From Halobellus sp. LT62 (GTDB taxonomy: Archaea > Halobacteriota > Halobacteria > Halobacteriales > Haloferacaceae), in assembly GCF_037031285.1 (NCBI RefSeq), contig NZ_JAYEZO010000001.1:620001-684000 (forward strand): a stretch of 64,000 nucleotides of DNA, given 5' to 3'. Shown here one piece after another: positions 4,578 to 49,053 of this stretch. Numbering within the stretch: position 1 is the first letter of the stretch; the number at the start of each line of letters is the position of its first letter. The notes under the pieces are model-generated. The model saw nothing but the letters and a program-made list of their open reading frames with translations. It was not told the DNA's origin and searched no databases. A program made the position numbers and the translations under genes.

Positions 4578-5384
4578 TCACTCAGTGACCGTTTCGAGCG
4601 GGACTGTCGGCGTCTTGCGCCGGAAAAACGAGAACTTCGATTCCGCCCACTCGCGTGCTTCCGGCGAGTCGGTGTCGAGTAACACCCGGATCGTTTGCGT
4701 GTCGGGGTCGTGGCCGCACACCGCGATCCGGTGGTCGAAGATACCCACCCCATACGACGGGAGATCGTCGTGCAGTCGGATGGTGAGATTACCGCTCGCC
4801 AGCGTCTCGGAGAACAGTTCCGGATAGGTCGAACGGATGTACCTGACGACGCCCGGCGGGTCGATGACCTCGGTTTGCATACCGTCGATGACTCGCTGAC
4901 AGAACTCGTCACGACACGGCTCGAGGAGGGCGAGGTCGGACCCGACGAAGCGGAACCGCTCGGTCTCTCTAATCAGCGTGAGAAACCGGTTTACCGGGGC
5001 GTACGGGTTGTCGGCTCCGGCGACCGTCACGACGGCGTCCGAGCACATCTCGAGGGTGACCCCAGTTTCTTCGCCCGGGAGCCACTGCCAGACGTCCCGG
5101 ACCTTCCGCTCGATTTCGACCCGTTCGATCAGCTCCGCCATCGCGAGCGCGATGAACGAACCCAGCTGCGTCGATTCGTACTGGTACCCGTTTCTGCGGA
5201 CCCAGTTGCGGTCTTCGAACTCCCGTAGCGTCCGTCGGATCGTGGACGAAGAGACACCCGTCATCTCCCAGAGTTCGGATCGGCTACGGGGACGGGCAGC
5301 TAGCGCGACGAGCGTCGGCGTGCGGTGTTCGGACCGCGCGAGGTACGCGATATCGTCGATCGGTGATCCCGTGCTCGGCCCCAT
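4578..5384 (-). CDS. Haloarchaeal HTH transcriptional regulator with C-terminal sensor domain
   Basis: Probable DNA-binding regulator of 268 aa. The N-terminal winged helix (residues about 15-70) has the helix-turn-helix TGVSSSTIRRTLREFEDR; a long helix follows and then a C-terminal domain of about 150 aa typical of haloarchaeal HTH regulators that carry a DUF1724/HVO_A0261-type effector region. ATG 5384 is chosen over an upstream GTG at 5399 because an AT-rich TATA-like element (TTATTAGG on the minus strand, around 5412) lies about 27 nt before it, fitting a leaderless transcript. It lies directly upstream of, and in the same direction as, the DUF1059-OsmC-methyltransferase operon, with a 341-bp gap, and is the natural candidate for its regulator. 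Confidence 0.8.
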   Translation of the reverse strand: MGPSTGSPIDDIAYLARSEHRTPTLVALAARPRSRSELWEMTGVSSSTIRRTLREFEDRNWVRRNGYQYESTQLGSFIALAMAELIERVEIERKVRDVWQWLPGEETGVTLEMCSDAVVTVAGADNPYAPVNRFLTLIRETERFRFVGSDLALLEPCRDEFCQRVIDGMQTEVIDPPGVVRYIRSTYPELFSETLASGNLTIRLHDDLPSYGVGIFDHRIAVCGHDPDTQTIRVLLDTDSPEAREWAESKFSFFRRKTPTVPLETVTE

Positions 5385-5503
5385 GGTATTAGTACACACG
5401 GTTTCCTAATAACCGTTCTCGTCCGTGGAACGAACCCGAACCGATACGGTGGACTGGCGCGAGTAATCGGTGCTCTCAACACCGCCGCATTCGATGCTCG
5501 CGT

Positions 5504-6190
5504 ATGGGCACGCCGCGTTCAACCCGCGAAGAGCAGGCCGCGGAGGTTCTCGACCGACTCTACGAGGAGTATCCGGATTCGACGATCTCGCTTAACTACT
5601 CGAACCGGTTGGAATTGCTCGTCGCCGTCGTCCTCTCCGCACAGTGCACCGACGAGCGGGTCAATCAGGTGACCGAGGAGCTGTTCGAGAAGTATCGGAG
5701 CGCGGCCGACTACGCCGACGCCGACGAGGCGGAACTCGCCGACGACATCTACGGGATCACGTTTCACAACAACAAGGCCGGCTATCTGAAATCGATCGGC
5801 GAGGCGTTGGTGGCCGAGCACGACGGCGAGGTCCCGGACACGATGGCCGAACTCACTGACCTGTCCGGCGTCGGTCGAAAGACCGCGAACGTCGTTCTGC
5901 AGCACGGCCACGATGTCGTGGAGGGAATCGTCGTCGACACGCACGTCCAGCGCATCTCTCGACGACTCGGTATCGCCGAGGAGGAGACGCCGACGAAGAT
6001 CGAGCGCGAACTGATGGAGTTGGTTCCGGAATCCGACTGGCAGCAGTTCACGCACCTCTTCATCAGCCACGGCCGCGCGGTCTGCACCGCTCGCAACCCC
6101 GACTGCGAGGCGTGCGTCCTCGAAGACCGCTGCCCGTCGTCGAAGCTCGACGGCGGCGTCGACCTTGCGTCGGGCGAAGCGTGGAGCTAG
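5504..6190 (+). CDS. nth: Endonuclease III
   Basis: Bifunctional DNA glycosylase/AP lyase for oxidised pyrimidines, 228 aa, the usual length. The helix-hairpin-helix reads LSGVGRKTANVVL with the catalytic lysine (Lys126), followed by VDTHVQRISRRLG with the catalytic aspartate (Asp145). The C-terminal 4Fe-4S motif C-X6-C-X2-C-X5-C is intact (Cys194, 201, 204, 210). It is a single gene divergent from the HTH regulator. Confidence 0.97.
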   Translation: MGTPRSTREEQAAEVLDRLYEEYPDSTISLNYSNRLELLVAVVLSAQCTDERVNQVTEELFEKYRSAADYADADEAELADDIYGITFHNNKAGYLKSIGEALVAEHDGEVPDTMAELTDLSGVGRKTANVVLQHGHDVVEGIVVDTHVQRISRRLGIAEEETPTKIERELMELVPESDWQQFTHLFISHGRAVCTARNPDCEACVLEDRCPSSKLDGGVDLASGEAWS

Positions 6191-39383: not shown

Positions 39384-40763
39384 TCAGTTCGCCTCCGATG
39401 CGAGTTGGTCGAAGGCTGCCCGGAGCTCTCGTTCGTCCGGGAGCGCGTAGATGTCGCAGGTGAACGTCTCGTCGGGCGTGGCGATCGCCGAATCGATGAG
39501 GAACGCGTAGTCCTGCGTCCGCGCGAGTTCGGTCACCAGCGGATCGACGATCGCCGACGCGATGTCGTCGACGTACGTCGGCGGCGAGATCTCGATCGTC
39601 GTCTCTAAGGCGTTCGCCCAGCCGTCGAGGAACCCGGAGGTGACGATGTTGCCGATCTCCTGTATCGCGCTCTGTCGCATCGCGGCGTCCGCGTCCATTC
39701 CCGGCATCAGCGCGTCGGCGACGCTCTCTGCGGACTCACGATCGAAGAGGATCGCGATGTATCCCGACGGCGTCCCGCTGAATTCCAAGACGACGCCGCG
39801 TCTGGCCTCGTCGCTCAACTCCATCGGCACGCCCTCGACGGGGACGAAACTCAGCCGACTCACGTCGACGTTCGTCTCGATCCCGGTCATCGCCGTCAGA
39901 TCCTCGGAGGCTTGGCCGGCTCCCTCCGAGATCATCTGCGAGAACGACGTGAACGTCTCGACGGGAATCGCGTCGTCGTCGTTCCCGGCGGCGTCGACGA
40001 TCGTCTCGACGGACTCGCGCGTCGGCAGCATATAGATGTAGAATCCGGCCTCCTCGTCGACGGTTTCGAGGTGGTTTCGAAACGCGAGAACGTGGTCGGC
40101 GTCGATAATCGGTGCCGAGGCCTCTCCAGCGCCGGTTGCTAGCTCGTCCGCCATCGATCCGTTCGTTGCCACACCGTCGGCCCCCGATCCGTTCGTCATC
40201 GATCCGTTCGTTGCCACCTCGTCCGTTACCGATCCGTTCGTCGAACCGTTCACCGTCGAGGAGTCCGTCGCCGCGCCGTTCGTCGCCGAAGCGCTCGCCG
40301 CGAACGTCGACTCCTCGACGACGTCCTGCAGCGATCGGCCGGCGTCCAACTCGACGTACGTCGGCGTCGTGATGTCGATACCCTCGCCGAGGAAGTCCGC
40401 CCAGCCGTCGATAAAGCCGCCGAGCATAATGTTCCCCAGCTCTTTCAGGCCGCTCGTCGCGAGCTCGCTGTCGGGGTCGTCCGCCGCGCCGGGAACGAGC
40501 GCGTCGACGAGCGTGACGGCGCGGTCGCGGTCGAACGCGAGGACGGTTCGTCCCTCGATGGCCCCCGAAAAGCCGATGTGGACGGTGACGAGGTCGCGCT
40601 CGCGGAACTCACGCTCGACGTCTGCACGGGTCGCCATCTCGACTTTGGTGACGGCGACGCGGGCGTCGAACCCGGTGAGCGTCGTGAGCGATCCCGCGGC
40701 CTGTTCGGCTCCGGAGTGAGCCAGTCGACTGAACGTCCGAAGCGACTGGACGTCGAGGTTCAT
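39384..40763 (-). CDS. cheC: Double CheC-like protein
   Basis: 459 aa, two CheC/CheX/FliY phosphatase-like domains in tandem (residues 1-150 and 215-459). Each has its ExxN signature: KELGNIMLGGFIDGW near 107-121 and QEIGNIVTSGFLDGW in the second domain. CheC proteins dephosphorylate CheY-P and bind CheD. Between the domains is a linker of about 50 aa made of NGS/NGA repeats. ATG 40763 overlaps the cheY stop by 4 bp; a longer frame to 40892 is only a shadow of cheY. Confidence 0.92.
   Translation of the reverse strand: MNLDVQSLRTFSRLAHSGAEQAAGSLTTLTGFDARVAVTKVEMATRADVEREFRERDLVTVHIGFSGAIEGRTVLAFDRDRAVTLVDALVPGAADDPDSELATSGLKELGNIMLGGFIDGWADFLGEGIDITTPTYVELDAGRSLQDVVEESTFAASASATNGAATDSSTVNGSTNGSVTDEVATNGSMTNGSGADGVATNGSMADELATGAGEASAPIIDADHVLAFRNHLETVDEEAGFYIYMLPTRESVETIVDAAGNDDDAIPVETFTSFSQMISEGAGQASEDLTAMTGIETNVDVSRLSFVPVEGVPMELSDEARRGVVLEFSGTPSGYIAILFDRESAESVADALMPGMDADAAMRQSAIQEIGNIVTSGFLDGWANALETTIEISPPTYVDDIASAIVDPLVTELARTQDYAFLIDSAIATPDETFTCDIYALPDERELRAAFDQLASEAN
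40128..40283. repeat. NGS-repeat linker region in cheC
   Basis: Imperfect repetition of the 11-bp core gatccgttcgt and related units, coding for ATNGSMTNGSGADG-like sequence (residues 161-212) between the two CheC domains. Confidence 0.85.
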
Positions 40764-41128
40764 GCCTCGACGCCCACCACGTCGTCGATGGCTTGGAGGA
40801 CGTTCGGCTTCTGAAACGGCTTCGTGATGTACCCGTCCGCCCCCGCCTCCACGGCCTCGCGCATCTTCTCTTCTTGACCCACGGACGTACACATAATGAC
40901 GGATGACGTCGGATCCTGCGATTTGATCTCGGCGGTCGCTTCGATGCCGTTGCGGATCGGCATCACGACGTCCATCGTGACGACGTCGGGATCGAGTTCG
41001 CGGTACAGTTCCACCGCCTCGACGCCGTTTTCGGCCTCGCCGACGACCTCGTGGTCCTCCTCGAGTAACTGCTTCAGGAGGTTCCGCATAAACGCCGAAT
41101 CGTCTACCACCAGTACGGTGCGTGCCAT
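40760..41128 (-). CDS. cheY: Chemotaxis response regulator CheY
   Basis: 122-aa receiver domain. Acidic pocket VVDDSAF, the phosphoacceptor Asp in VVTMDVVMP, Thr/Ser in IMCTSVGQ and Lys in YITKPF are all present. It carries the phosphate signal from CheA to the archaellum through CheF. Begins the operon cheY-cheC-cheD; overlaps cheC by 4 bp. Its promoter contains the motility-regulon palindrome, and the ATG is 24 nt after the TATA box, so the transcript is leaderless. Confidence 0.97.
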   Translation of the reverse strand: MARTVLVVDDSAFMRNLLKQLLEEDHEVVGEAENGVEAVELYRELDPDVVTMDVVMPIRNGIEATAEIKSQDPTSSVIMCTSVGQEEKMREAVEAGADGYITKPFQKPNVLQAIDDVVGVEA

Positions 41129-41151: not shown

Positions 41152-41185
41152 TATAAACGCATCGCTCCCATTATCACAGATGATA
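41152..41185 (-). promoter_or_regulatory. Motility-regulon operator and TATA of cheY
   Basis: On the minus strand: palindrome TATCA-TCTG-TGATA (41185-41172, both arms perfect), 13 nt, then GTTTATA (41158-41152). Spacing equals that of both archaellin promoters. Confidence 0.75.
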
Positions 41186-41935: not shown

Positions 41936-42274
41936 ATGGAGTCTGACAGGACGCTCGCGGCGCTCGGGAACGAGTACAACCCCGATATCTTACGCGCTGC
42001 CGACGAAGCCCACTCGGCACAGGAGTTCAGTGAAATGCTCGATATTCCGATTGCGACGTGTTACCGTCGCATCGAAGAGCTCACGGGTGCCGGATTACTC
42101 GAACTACACGACCGCGTCCTTTCGGACGAACACCGCCGAACGAACGTCTACCGTCGCGATATCGACGAGATCGTCATCAATTTCGAGGGCCAAGATCTCA
42201 ACGTGCAAGTGACCGACCGTCCCGAAGTGAAGAACAAACTCGACGACGTCTGGCGGAAAATTTCTCAAGAGTAG
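41936..42274 (+). CDS. Winged-helix regulator upstream of archaellins (EarA-like candidate)
   Basis: 112-aa winged helix: MESDRTLAALGNEYNPDILRA, then LDIPIATCYRRIEELTGAGLLE (HTH) and the wing NVYRRDIDEIVINFEG. Size, fold and position directly before the archaellin genes resemble EarA, the euryarchaeal activator of archaellum genes that binds upstream of the BRE. The match is by fold and place only. It may bind the palindrome found in the four motility promoters. Confidence 0.85.
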   Translation: MESDRTLAALGNEYNPDILRAADEAHSAQEFSEMLDIPIATCYRRIEELTGAGLLELHDRVLSDEHRRTNVYRRDIDEIVINFEGQDLNVQVTDRPEVKNKLDDVWRKISQE

Positions 42275-42491: not shown

Positions 42492-42528
42492 GAATATCAG
42501 TGGTGATATTCAGGCACATAGCATTATG
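42492..42528 (+). promoter_or_regulatory. Motility-regulon operator and TATA of the first archaellin pair
   Basis: 8-bp perfect arms GAATATCA-GTGG-TGATATTC (42492-42511; core TATCA-N4-TGATA 42495-42508), then CATTATG at 42522. The start codon is 83 bp downstream, so a leader of about 55 nt is expected. The wider 330-bp gap (42275-42604) has no gene. Confidence 0.75.
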
Positions 42529-42604
42529 TGCAGTCCGCTGATCGGTTCGCGTGACGGTCCACCCGCCATCGCGGAGGGAAGGGACCAGACTGGAGACACA
42601 CAAT

Positions 42605-43267
42605 ATGTTCGAAGACAACGACGCCGACCGTGGTCAGGTCGGTATCGGAACGCTCATCGTGTTCATCGCGATGGTCCTCGTCGCTGCGATCGCGGCCGGG
42701 GTCCTGGTGAACACGGCAGGCTTCCTCCAAGCGACCGCGGAGGACGCCGGCCAAGAGAGCGTCGACAAGGTGACGAATCGACTCGATGTCGTGAGTTCTC
42801 ACGGCCTCATTAACGAATCAGGCGGCGATCTCTACGTCGACAGCCTCAACCTCACGGTTCGGCTCGCGGCGGGATCGGGTGCGGTCAACATCGAGGACAC
42901 CACGATAAAGTACGTGAGTAGCTCGAAGGCGGAGAACCTCATCTACAAAGAGACAGGTGACGGAACGTTAGGTCCCGTTCACAAGTACAATTCCTCAGAT
43001 AATTACGAGGGTCTCAACTCCACGGAGTTCACTGCCTACTCGCTGAACGACAACGACGACGAGTCGTTCCCGGTGCTGAACGGGCAGGCCGACCGCTACG
43101 AGATCGTGATCAACGCGTCGCTCGTCGAGGAGAACGGCGCAGGTCTCTCTACTGGAGACTCGATCGAACTCGACATCACCAGTCGGTCCGGCGGCTCCAC
43201 GCAGGTCATCTACACGATGCCCCAGCAACTCGCCGGACAGGACGACAACGATCCGGTGGCACTCTGA
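42605..43267 (+). CDS. arlA1: Archaellin A1 (archaellum filament protein)
   Basis: 220-aa major subunit of the archaellum. A type IV pilin-like leader ends at DADRG; cleavage before [10 protein letters not shown] by the prearchaellin peptidase is predicted, followed by the hydrophobic filament-core helix [22 protein letters not shown]. The rest is a beta-rich globular domain with N-x-S/T glycosylation sequons (NESG, NLTVR, NSTE, NASL). The end [20 protein letters not shown] is shared with the third archaellin. The first 182 nt are identical to those of the third archaellin. Start ATG 42605; the longer frame before it is noise. Confidence 0.97.
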
Positions 43268-43276
43268 GGTAACACA

Positions 43277-43897
43277 ATGAAACAACTATTCAACGAAGAC
43301 GAACGCGGTCAGGTCGGTATCGGTACGCTCATCGTGTTCATCGCGATGGTTCTCGTCGCTGCGATCGCGGCGGGAGTGCTCGTGAACACGGCAGGCTTCT
43401 TGCAGGCGACTGCCGAAGACGCCGGTCAAGAGAGCGTCGACAAGGTCACGAACCGCGTCGAAGTGATCAACCAGCACGGCACCGTCGGGCTGAACGATAC
43501 GATCTCCAATATGACACTGACGGTCCGGCTCGCTGCTGGATCCGGTGCAGTGGATATGGATACCACTTCGATCAAGTATCTCAGCGACAACGAAGTCCAG
43601 ACGCTGACGAACAGTTCGGACGGTATGGTGGATCCCGCGGGGAACGCCACGCAGTTCAACCTCACGGAGGTCACCGATGACGACGGATCCTTCGGCGTCC
43701 TCAACAGCGGGAACGACCGCTACGAGGTGACGATCAACGCGTCCGATATCGAGGGCGGATACGATTACAACGGCTTGAATACGGGCGATAAGATCCAACT
43801 GGACATCACGAGCCAGACCGGCGGCACGACGCAGGTCATCCTGACGATGCCCCAGCAACTCGCCGGGAAGAATACCGGCGAACCGGTCAAGCTCTGA
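43277..43897 (+). CDS. arlA2: Archaellin B1
   Basis: 206 aa. Same leader and core helix as A1 (DERG, then [10 protein letters not shown]), with globular domain of a second type: [32 protein letters not shown], end [17 protein letters not shown]. Nearly the same as the fourth archaellin (44988). Starts 9 bp after A1, so both come from one mRNA. Confidence 0.97.
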
Positions 43898-44306
43898 ACT
43901 CCGGTCTCACCTCGCACTGACGACGAGCACAACTTTTCATTTCTCTCACGCCGTGAGCGGCTCGCTTGTCGGGTGCGTGACGTACTGACGGTGATAATTC
44001 CGTATCGGCAGGGGCAAAAGACGTACTGTGCTAAGGATTCTGCGTACTGCCGACCGATCTCTGATTCCCTCAACCGTCGACCTCATCTTTCGAGCAGTCG
44101 ATATTTCTGTGCTGGATTGTTTGGTGCGCCAGTACTGGTGGAAGTGTATAATATAAAATTCTTTATATAACCTGCCGAGACTCGTCTACGGATACTATCA
44201 CCGCTGATATCTGGGGCCATACCATTATGTACGGACCATTGCTCAGTCGAGTTAACGGTCTGCTCTCTAGCGGAATGGGGAGTCGGACTGGAGACACACA
44301 ACAACA
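43898..44306. other. 409-bp spacer between archaellin pairs
   Basis: Holds the second archaellin promoter (44196-44229) and an AT-rich stretch aatataaaattctttatataac at 44149-44170 that is not accounted for by it. No ORF with protein-like composition was seen on either strand; the open frame 43973-44170 has none of the usual acidic bias. Confidence 0.6.
44196..44229 (+). promoter_or_regulatory. Motility-regulon operator and TATA of the second archaellin pair
   Basis: Core TATCA-CCGC-TGATA at 44196-44209 and CATTATG at 44223; spacing 13 nt as in the first pair. The leader, including ctggagacacacaa just before the start, is also shared with the first pair. Confidence 0.75.
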
Positions 44307-44978
44307 ATGTTCGAAGACAACGACGCCGACCGTGGTCAGGTCGGTATCGGAACGCTCATCGTGTTCATCGCGATGGTCCTCGTCGCTGCGATCGCGGCCG
44401 GGGTCCTGGTGAACACGGCAGGCTTCCTCCAAGCGACCGCGGAGGACGCCGGCCAAGAGAGCGTCGACAAGGTGACGAATCGACTCGACGTGGTCAGTGC
44501 GCACGGCCTCGTCAACGAAACGAGTGACGACAGCCTCGCCGTCGACAGTCTTAACCTCACGGTTCGGCTCGCGGCCGGCTCTGGTGCAGTCAACCTCGAG
44601 GACACCACGATAAAGTACGTGAGTAGCACGAAGGCGAAGAACCTCGTCTACAAGAACTCCTCAAGCAGCGATGGAAGCACCTTACTCAACGTCTCACAGT
44701 ATGAAGACGGCTACGAGAGCGGCCTCAACGGAACGGAGTTCACGGCGTATGCAGTCGATGATAACGACGACGCGTCGTTCCCGGTGCTGAACGGGCAGGC
44801 CGACCGCTACGAGATCGTGATCAACGCGTCGCTCGTCGAGGAGAACGGCGCGGGGCTTTCGACCGGTGACTCGATCGAACTCGACATCACCAGTCGCTCC
44901 GGCGGATCGACGCAGGCCATATTCACGATGCCCCAGCAACTCGCCGGACAGGACGACAACGATCCGGTGCCACTCTAA
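44307..44978 (+). CDS. arlA3: Archaellin A2
   Basis: 223 aa, paralogue of the first archaellin. Identical at DNA level over the first 182 nt; the central part ([17 protein letters not shown], then [18 protein letters not shown]) differs, and the end returns to high similarity. Leader cleavage site DADRG before QVGIG. Filament subunit; several glycosylation sequons (NETS, NLTVR, NSSSS, NVSQ). Confidence 0.97.
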
Positions 44979-44987
44979 GTAATCTCA

Positions 44988-45608
44988 ATGTTTGATATAT
45001 TCGACGAAGACGAACGCGGTCAGGTCGGTATCGGCACGCTCATCGTATTCATCGCGATGGTTCTCGTCGCTGCGATCGCGGCGGGGGTTCTCGTGAACAC
45101 TGCTGGCTTCTTGCAGGCGACCGCGGAGGACGCCGGCCAAGAGAGCGTCGACAAGGTCACGAACCGCGTCGACGTGATCAACCAGCACGGTACCGTTGGC
45201 AGCAATGACGACATCGCCAACATCACGATGACCGTCCGACTCGCCGCCGGATCGGGAGCGGTGGATATGGATACTACCTCAATCAAGTACCTCAGTGATA
45301 GCCAAGTGACGACGCTGACGAACAGTACTGACGATATGGACTACGCCGCAGGGAACGAAAGCCAGTTCAACCTCACGAAGGTCACAGACAACGACGACTC
45401 CTTCGGCGTTCTCAACAGCCGCGACGATCGCTACGAGGTGACGATCAATGCATCAGCGATCGAGAGCGGCGGTGCGGGCGAGGGACTCGGTACGGGCGAG
45501 CAGATTCAACTGGACATCACGAGCCAGACCGGCGGCACGACGCAGGTCATCCTGACGATGCCCCAGCAACTCGCCGGGAAAGACACCGGCGAACCGGTTC
45601 AGCTCTGA
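44988..45608 (+). CDS. arlA4: Archaellin B2
   Basis: 206 aa, paralogue of the second archaellin: same order of segments ([32 protein letters not shown]) and the same end [17 protein letters not shown]. Follows A2 by 9 bp, like B1 follows A1, so the pair was duplicated as a unit. Confidence 0.97.
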
Positions 45609-48179: not shown

Positions 48180-48597
48180 CGGGTCGACGGCGATCATCTT
48201 CCTCGGCGTCTTGATCGCGTCGGGGACGCTCTATACGGCGGCCGCCGGGAGCGCAGAGCAGATCACCGAGGCACGGGAAGAAAAGGGCGAGGACCTCTTA
48301 GATCAGCGGAACACCGATCTGGAAATCGATCGCGTGTTCTATAACGATTCCACCTTGGAGATCAACGTGACGAATACGGGGACGACGACGCTTTCCGTCG
48401 AGGGAGTGAGTCTCTTGCTCGACAACGAGCACGTTCTTCCGGACTCGACCGAGGTGGAGGACGACCTCTCGACAGACGTCTGGGGTGCCGATCAGAAACT
48501 GGTCATCCGCATCAACGACGTGTCTCAGCCCGACCGCGTCACCGTCGTCGCCGAGAACGGGGTCGCCGCGAGCAACTCGACGGTCGAGGTGAGCTAG
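48163..48597 (+). CDS. arlF: Archaellum stator protein ArlF
   Basis: 144 aa. A GTG at 48163 gives the normal start (M)[20 protein letters not shown], the membrane anchor of the family; longer frames contain arlCE sequence in the wrong frame. Then a beta-sandwich domain ([19 protein letters not shown]). With ArlG it contacts the S-layer. Overlaps arlCE by 17 nt and is followed directly by arlG. Confidence 0.93.
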
Positions 48598-49053
48598 ATG
48601 GCCGACGTGTCCGTTCCGAGCCTGATCCTGTTCATCGCGAGCATCGTCATCGCCGCGGGCGTCGCGGGCGTCCTCATCGACACCGTAACGGGTATCAGCG
48701 GCTCTCTCGACGACCGCGGCGCGGACGTCTCAGAGAACATCCGGACCGACATCGAGATCATCAGCAGCCCCGAGCCGGGCGTCTACAACGAGACGAACGA
48801 CGAGCTCACGCTGTACGTGAAAAACACCGGGAGACGGACCTTACCGGCGACCGGCGAGACGTTCGACGTGATCGTCGACGCGCAGTACCGCGCGAACGTC
48901 TCCGTGTCCGTCGCGGGCGATGCCGACGCCGACGAGTGGGCTCCGCACGACGTCGTCGAGGTGACGATCGGCGATCTAGTCTTAGACGAGGGCGACCACC
49001 GCGCCACGCTGGTCGTCGACGGCGACGAGGAGGTGTTCCGATTCAACCGATGA
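48598..49053 (+). CDS. arlG: Archaellum stator protein ArlG
   Basis: 151 aa. Membrane helix [19 protein letters not shown] at residues 9-28; beta-sandwich with [17 protein letters not shown]. Starts on the base after the arlF stop and overlaps arlH by 4 bp. Forms a filament with ArlF. Confidence 0.93.

Follow-up and report, generated by a model that had tools for sequence, protein, structure and literature searches.

The reasons for keeping several archaellins per archaeon are debated, with proposals including minor components, ecoparalogues and stabilising pairs. In Halorubrum, nine species among 50 genomes examined are reported to carry an extra archaellin operon (PMC7349177). The archaellins ArlB1 and ArlB2 of Methanocaldococcus villosus have identical alpha-helical tails and differing heads, and co-assemble as an alternating heteropolymer (PMC8821640). 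Long-lasting concerted evolution, in which paralogues of one genome resemble each other more than their orthologues, is described for prokaryotic genes including fla of Alteromonadales (PMC6053082), and the Salmonella flagellin genes fliC and fljB have conserved 5' and 3' ends around a variable centre, with recombination reported between them (PMC5744181). Efficient gene conversion between genome copies has been measured in Haloferax volcanii, so that the machinery is plausible in haloarchaea more widely (PMC8223754). Duplicated archaellin operons and prokaryotic concerted evolution are each already published; for partial concerted evolution of archaellins, no report was found in the open-licence library searched, as judged mainly by titles and the starts of abstracts.

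The locus described here lies in a window of 64,000 nucleotides (the whole stretch of DNA that was analysed) from Halobellus sp. LT62 and contains four archaellin genes in the order A1-B1-A2-B2, two A-B pairs in tandem (Table 1). A first-pass annotation had given the two pairs the same gene order and 9-bp spacing, and the A-B spacer is indeed 9 nt in each. All four proteins belong to the Arch_flagellin family PF01917, at 114.7-126.6 bits against a curated cut-off of 29.5, and match TIGR02537, the archaellin/type IV pilin N-terminal domain (E 5e-10 to 3.7e-11). A structure model of A1, of moderate confidence (pLDDT 70) and used for the tail/head boundary and the fold match, resembles the H. salinarum archaellum 9eq7 (Foldseek E 2.3e-12) and places the helix at residues 14-53 and the beginning of the first head strand at residue 59. 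The genome has no other full archaellin. Two further PF01917 matches, both short, lie downstream of them at 48181-48576 and 48619-48975 of the window, in what we take to be arlG/arlF-like genes. The A1 DNA as query matched A1, A2, B1 and B2 and nothing else in the genome, and a search of a plasmid collection gave no match.

Table 1. Features of the archaellin locus of Halobellus sp. LT62 (positions in the window)
Feature	Position	Strand	Evidence or remark
Small winged-helix regulator gene (HTH_20, 112 aa), candidate CsmR	41936..42274	+	PF12840 4.4e-08; directly upstream of A1
Predicted CsmR-type operator TATCA(N4)TGATA upstream of A1	42495..42508	+	exact match
Archaellin A1, 220 aa	42605..43267	+	open frame; PF01917 E 3.1e-33
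Archaellin B1, 206 aa	43277..43897	+	open frame; PF01917 E 1.6e-36
Predicted CsmR-type operator upstream of A2	44196..44209	+	exact match
Archaellin A2, 223 aa	44307..44978	+	open frame; PF01917 E 6.8e-33
Archaellin B2, 206 aa	44988..45608	+	open frame; PF01917 E 1.5e-36
Identical tract A1/A2, 182 nt (leader, tail helix, first head residues)	A1 copy 42605..42786; A2 copy 44307..44488	+	exact identity from ATG
Second identical tract A1/A2, 78 nt, 3' part (SFPVLN..VEENGA)	A1 copy 43063..43140; A2 copy 44774..44851	+	second-run P 0.0038
Tract of 41 nt common to A1, A2 and B2, absent from B1	42731..42771	+	A2/B2 silent-run P 0.036, weak
Identical tract B1/B2, 74 nt, 3' end	B1 43796..43869; B2 45507-45580	+	best B1/B2 tract, P 0.017

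The tail protein is almost invariant among all archaellins compared, including B1 and B2, whose DNA differs; protein identity therefore proves nothing and only silent sites are informative. The identity of the first 182 nt of A1 and A2, third codon positions included, had been noted in the first-pass annotation and is exact. In the tail-coding codons 1-59 none of the 44 synonymous sites differs, and the tract stops within codon 61, near the end of the tail helix as modelled. Silent differences in the successive segments that follow number 11/23, 24/41, 3/21 and 7/28, so that pS is 0.47 and 0.57 directly after the tail, then 0.14 and 0.25 nearing the 3' end. The windowed comparison that the annotation had called for thus reveals strongly non-uniform silent divergence. 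When the silent differences were shuffled along the pair 10,000 times, a run of identical codons as long as the 5' tract had a P of about 1e-4. For the time since the last event, tail pS has a 95% upper bound of 0.066. The tract is flanked by diverged DNA on both sides, a pattern that one unequal crossover would not produce. The 78-nt tract in the 3' part is an addition to the features first listed, and the 41-nt tract could mark an exchange between A and B genes.

Homogenised 5' ends are found in A1/A2 only; at the 5' ends of B1 and B2, 10 of the 43 silent sites are different. The conversion signal in B1/B2 is weak. Compared with Halobellus captivus, the B genes appear mosaic: nt 290-460 and the downstream flanks are alike by position, the tail is alike within each genome, and the 5' segments together with the A-B spacer are crossed, B1 of LT62 resembling B2 of H. 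captivus and B2 resembling B1 (43277-43520 and 44988-45230 of the window; H. captivus L034:3157-3507 and 4890-5510). This crossing is either an exchange or a mis-assembly in H. captivus; the draft B1 of that species has a 10-base N gap located where B1 shifts from crossed to positional, so a mis-assembly there is possible.

Apart from this gap, H. captivus has the same four-gene array, and quartets of the two A genes from the two species allow the age of the copies to be judged. Upstream of A, 23 sites group the copies by position and 7 within the genome, some of the 7 falling in the distal, poorly aligned end. In the coding sequence, nt 0-300 hold 21 within-genome sites against 0 positional ones and nt 460-663 hold 14 against 0, with a mixed centre between them (nt 300-460; 11 within-genome, 5 positional and 5 crossed). 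Within-genome sites do not depend on the order of the copies in H. captivus, so a phasing error in the draft would not produce them. Trees of the A genes join the LT62 copies with support of 96 for the tail, 94 for the variable part, 91 for the 3' part and 100 for the whole gene. The central tree also joins them, at 65, so that with the mixed quartet the heads give no demonstration of positional orthology. The DNA that follows B1 (85%, 73 nt) and B2 (91%, 162 nt) is orthologous by position. Flanking orthologues of the two species have a pS of 0.28-0.43, and the A1/A2 head, at 0.47-0.57, is at least as diverged; the copies are therefore old, and the tail tract is young.

We place at roughly 0.87 the probability that the tandem duplication preceded the species split and was followed by ectopic gene conversion between the copies, that is, partial concerted evolution. 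Both parts have direct counterparts in the alignments: paralogues are more similar within a genome than orthologues are, silent sites included, and the promoters and downstream flanks are positional orthologues in H. captivus. The gene conversion advanced in the first-pass annotation accordingly holds, with silent divergence non-uniform, coding ends alike within genomes and promoters orthologous across species. An A-B operon would have been duplicated in tandem in Halobellus before the LT62 species and H. captivus separated, and conversion would then have overwritten, time and again, the stretches of highest similarity: the 5' end, which encodes the tail, and the 3' part. Overwriting may have spared the promoters and the indel-rich head centre because these were too diverged or because change there was too harmful. 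Transfer would be non-reciprocal, by homologous recombination, and probably aided by the polyploid haloarchaeal genome. The location of the tract would be set by the high similarity of the tail and not by selection for identical DNA, which need not be invoked when the tail protein is presumably held by selection anyway. As that protein is already invariant, conversion of the A1/A2 tail need not alter it. The earlier proposal that conversion serves uniformity of the filament core gains no support for the same reason, the tail being near-invariant with or without conversion, B1/B2 included; nor is adaptive diversification of the surface domain supported, pN in the A1/A2 centre being 0.25 against a pS of 0.57.

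A wider survey indicates how common such tracts are. Archaellin-family matches occur in 12 of 17 Halobellus genomes (LT62 counted); complete four-gene arrays are present in three (LT62, H. captivus and G007) and a single pair in seven. The contigs of H. clavatus (second pair) and H. rufus (A gene) end inside archaellin 5' ends (L035, L044), and drafts may therefore under-count archaellins. The other two complete arrays have identical tracts of their own, of 218 and 167 nt in H. captivus and of 110 nt of coding sequence plus 92 nt upstream in G007, and tract positions differ among the three. In H. inordinatus (L037, G003), which has one pair, A and B compared with each other have a tail pS of 0.11 and a head pS of 0.75, which suggests conversion between A and B types as well.

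The set was extended to 147 complete archaellins from 39 haloarchaeal genomes (10,731 pairs), in which exact runs of at least 100 nt with a head pS of at least 0.35 were sought. The family set is non-random: beyond Halobellus it comprises 25 mostly multi-copy genomes picked from a 148-genome family list, together with three named loci whose genus labels were assigned by hand (Halogeometricum limi to g25, two Haloferax to g28), and several multi-copy genomes contributed only some of their archaellin loci. Partial, truncated or N-containing genes (H. captivus B1, the second A and B of H. clavatus, H. rufus A) were dropped. Of the 286 within-genome pairs, 7 had such a run. No pair from different genomes did, with 0 of 1081 inside a genus and 0 of 9309 across genera, together 0 of 10,390 (Fisher, within-genome against same-genus, p 1.7e-5). 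The 182-nt run is the second longest in this set, and 19 of the 20 runs of at least 80 nt start in the leader or tail. A general homogenisation of tails was sought in the same set, and medians were not generally lower within genomes (0.53 within genomes against 0.48 within the same genus, at a head pS of 0.6-0.7); the excess is confined to extreme pairs, and conversion is thus occasional. Three same-genus pairs from different genomes likewise have a tail pS of at most 0.10. Four genomes of genus g5 (G115, G066, G111, G103) have 8-10 archaellin-family matches each, many of them dispersed over the chromosome.

The regulatory DNA bears on how the two pairs are used. The motif TATCA(N4)TGATA is the ChIP-seq motif reported for CsmR, an archaellum regulator of H. 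volcanii whose gene (hvo_1209) is located upstream of arlA1/arlA2 (PMC13286277). The 112-aa winged-helix gene is 85.7% identical to a Haloferax marinum gene in a matching locus and, from this comparison and its position as in H. volcanii, is a candidate CsmR. Genome-wide, the motif has four sites and a reversed-pattern control none. A third exact site at 41172-41185 lies just upstream of a minus-strand gene (40760-41128), presumably a CheY-like response regulator, and the fourth is outside the window (G000:C1:970100). Each A gene has its own upstream promoter block containing the operator motif. Of the similar promoters noted earlier, the conserved box is present in both, and the DNA preceding A1 and A2 is otherwise clearly diverged. 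Separate conserved promoters with the same operator motif predict joint expression of the pairs, not alternation, and we infer that both would be expressed together under CsmR.

Several other histories could give rise to alike 5' ends. Strong constraint on silent sites, through codon use or mRNA structure, might keep them alike with no conversion at all, and tails are indeed slow at silent sites in general, with divergence below that of the head in nearly every comparison. Nevertheless, A1 of LT62 and the A genes of the eight other Halobellus genomes in the matrix have a pS of 0.21-0.37 in the same tail segment, and at a pS of 0.21 the probability of 0/44 is 3e-5. Exact runs in 328 between-genome pairs in Halobellus reach 74 nt at most and tail pS falls no lower than 0.108, and the B1/B2 tails diverge silently while their core protein is equal; constraint is thus exceedingly improbable as the sole cause. 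A recent tandem duplication, independent in each species and followed by rapid divergence of the heads, would agree with trees that cluster copies by genome and fits G007, in which identity extends upstream of the gene. It conflicts with the positional orthology of the A1 and A2 promoters and of the DNA after B1 and B2, and with head silent divergence that equals the interspecies level. For the LT62 array such a history appears largely refuted by these alignments, and we regard it as quite unlikely.

Collapse of two similar 5' ends by short-read assembly would also yield identical DNA, and repeats do trouble assemblers, as the breaks inside archaellin genes of H. clavatus and H. rufus attest. 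In those drafts the repeats caused breaks, however, not merging; the LT62 genome is in 3 contigs, of which the one with the window measures 1.95 Mb, and the low-contig assemblies G007 (2 contigs) and G049 (6 contigs) have tracts of 110 and 197 nt, which leaves an artefact hardly credible. The first-pass annotation had also raised antigen-like variation, in which programmed swapping of head domains between copies alters the filament surface. Conserved ends around a variable centre are the layout of Salmonella fliC/fljB (PMC5744181), and the B 5' segments seem to have been exchanged between LT62 and H. captivus. Against it, silent promoterless donor cassettes were sought in the genome with the A1 DNA and PF01917 matches and none was found beside the four genes and two short relatives; each pair is preceded by a promoter block that carries the operator motif, and it is at their ends that the genes are homogenised and not in the heads. 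We consider such variation very unlikely.

Old duplication with later conversion has consequences for how archaellins are read. Whole-gene trees would blend different histories, and near-identical tail DNA alone is no proof of recent duplication. The outcome in the cell may be a filament of up to four co-assembling archaellins; co-assembly in one filament is likely by analogy with M. villosus and Halorubrum. A broader and doubtful idea is that, in multi-archaellin haloarchaea, the genes have permanent sites of recombination in their common tail and 3' end, which would keep paralogues exchangeable and also reassort heads and whole A-B combinations. If so, filament surfaces would be reshuffled over evolutionary time without dedicated machinery, and the exchanged B1/B2 5' segments of LT62 and H. 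captivus would be its trace.

Each of the known systems resembles the LT62 locus in part. As in M. villosus, identical tails are joined to differing heads; the heteropolymer of that species was shown structurally, whereas the LT62 array is known from genes alone and its conversion is inferred (PMC8821640). The Halorubrum case likewise involves a duplicated two-gene archaellin operon, although the Halobellus pairs belong to the closely related (Haloferax) type, and the available part of the Halorubrum paper reports divergence and mixed-filament stability with conversion unmentioned (PMC7349177). Salmonella fliC/fljB share the arrangement of conserved ends and variable centre and are subject to a switch between the two genes, of which no counterpart is seen in LT62 (PMC5744181). 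The conversion measured in H. volcanii is the same type of process in a haloarchaeon, acting there between chromosome copies with far longer tracts of 600 bp to several kb (PMC8223754). Prokaryotic concerted evolution is a further parallel, a filament subunit being among its cases; the seven archaeal genes of that study are all from methanogens, with 'archaell' and 'halo' absent from its main text, and in LT62, in contrast, only parts of the genes are homogenised (PMC6053082).
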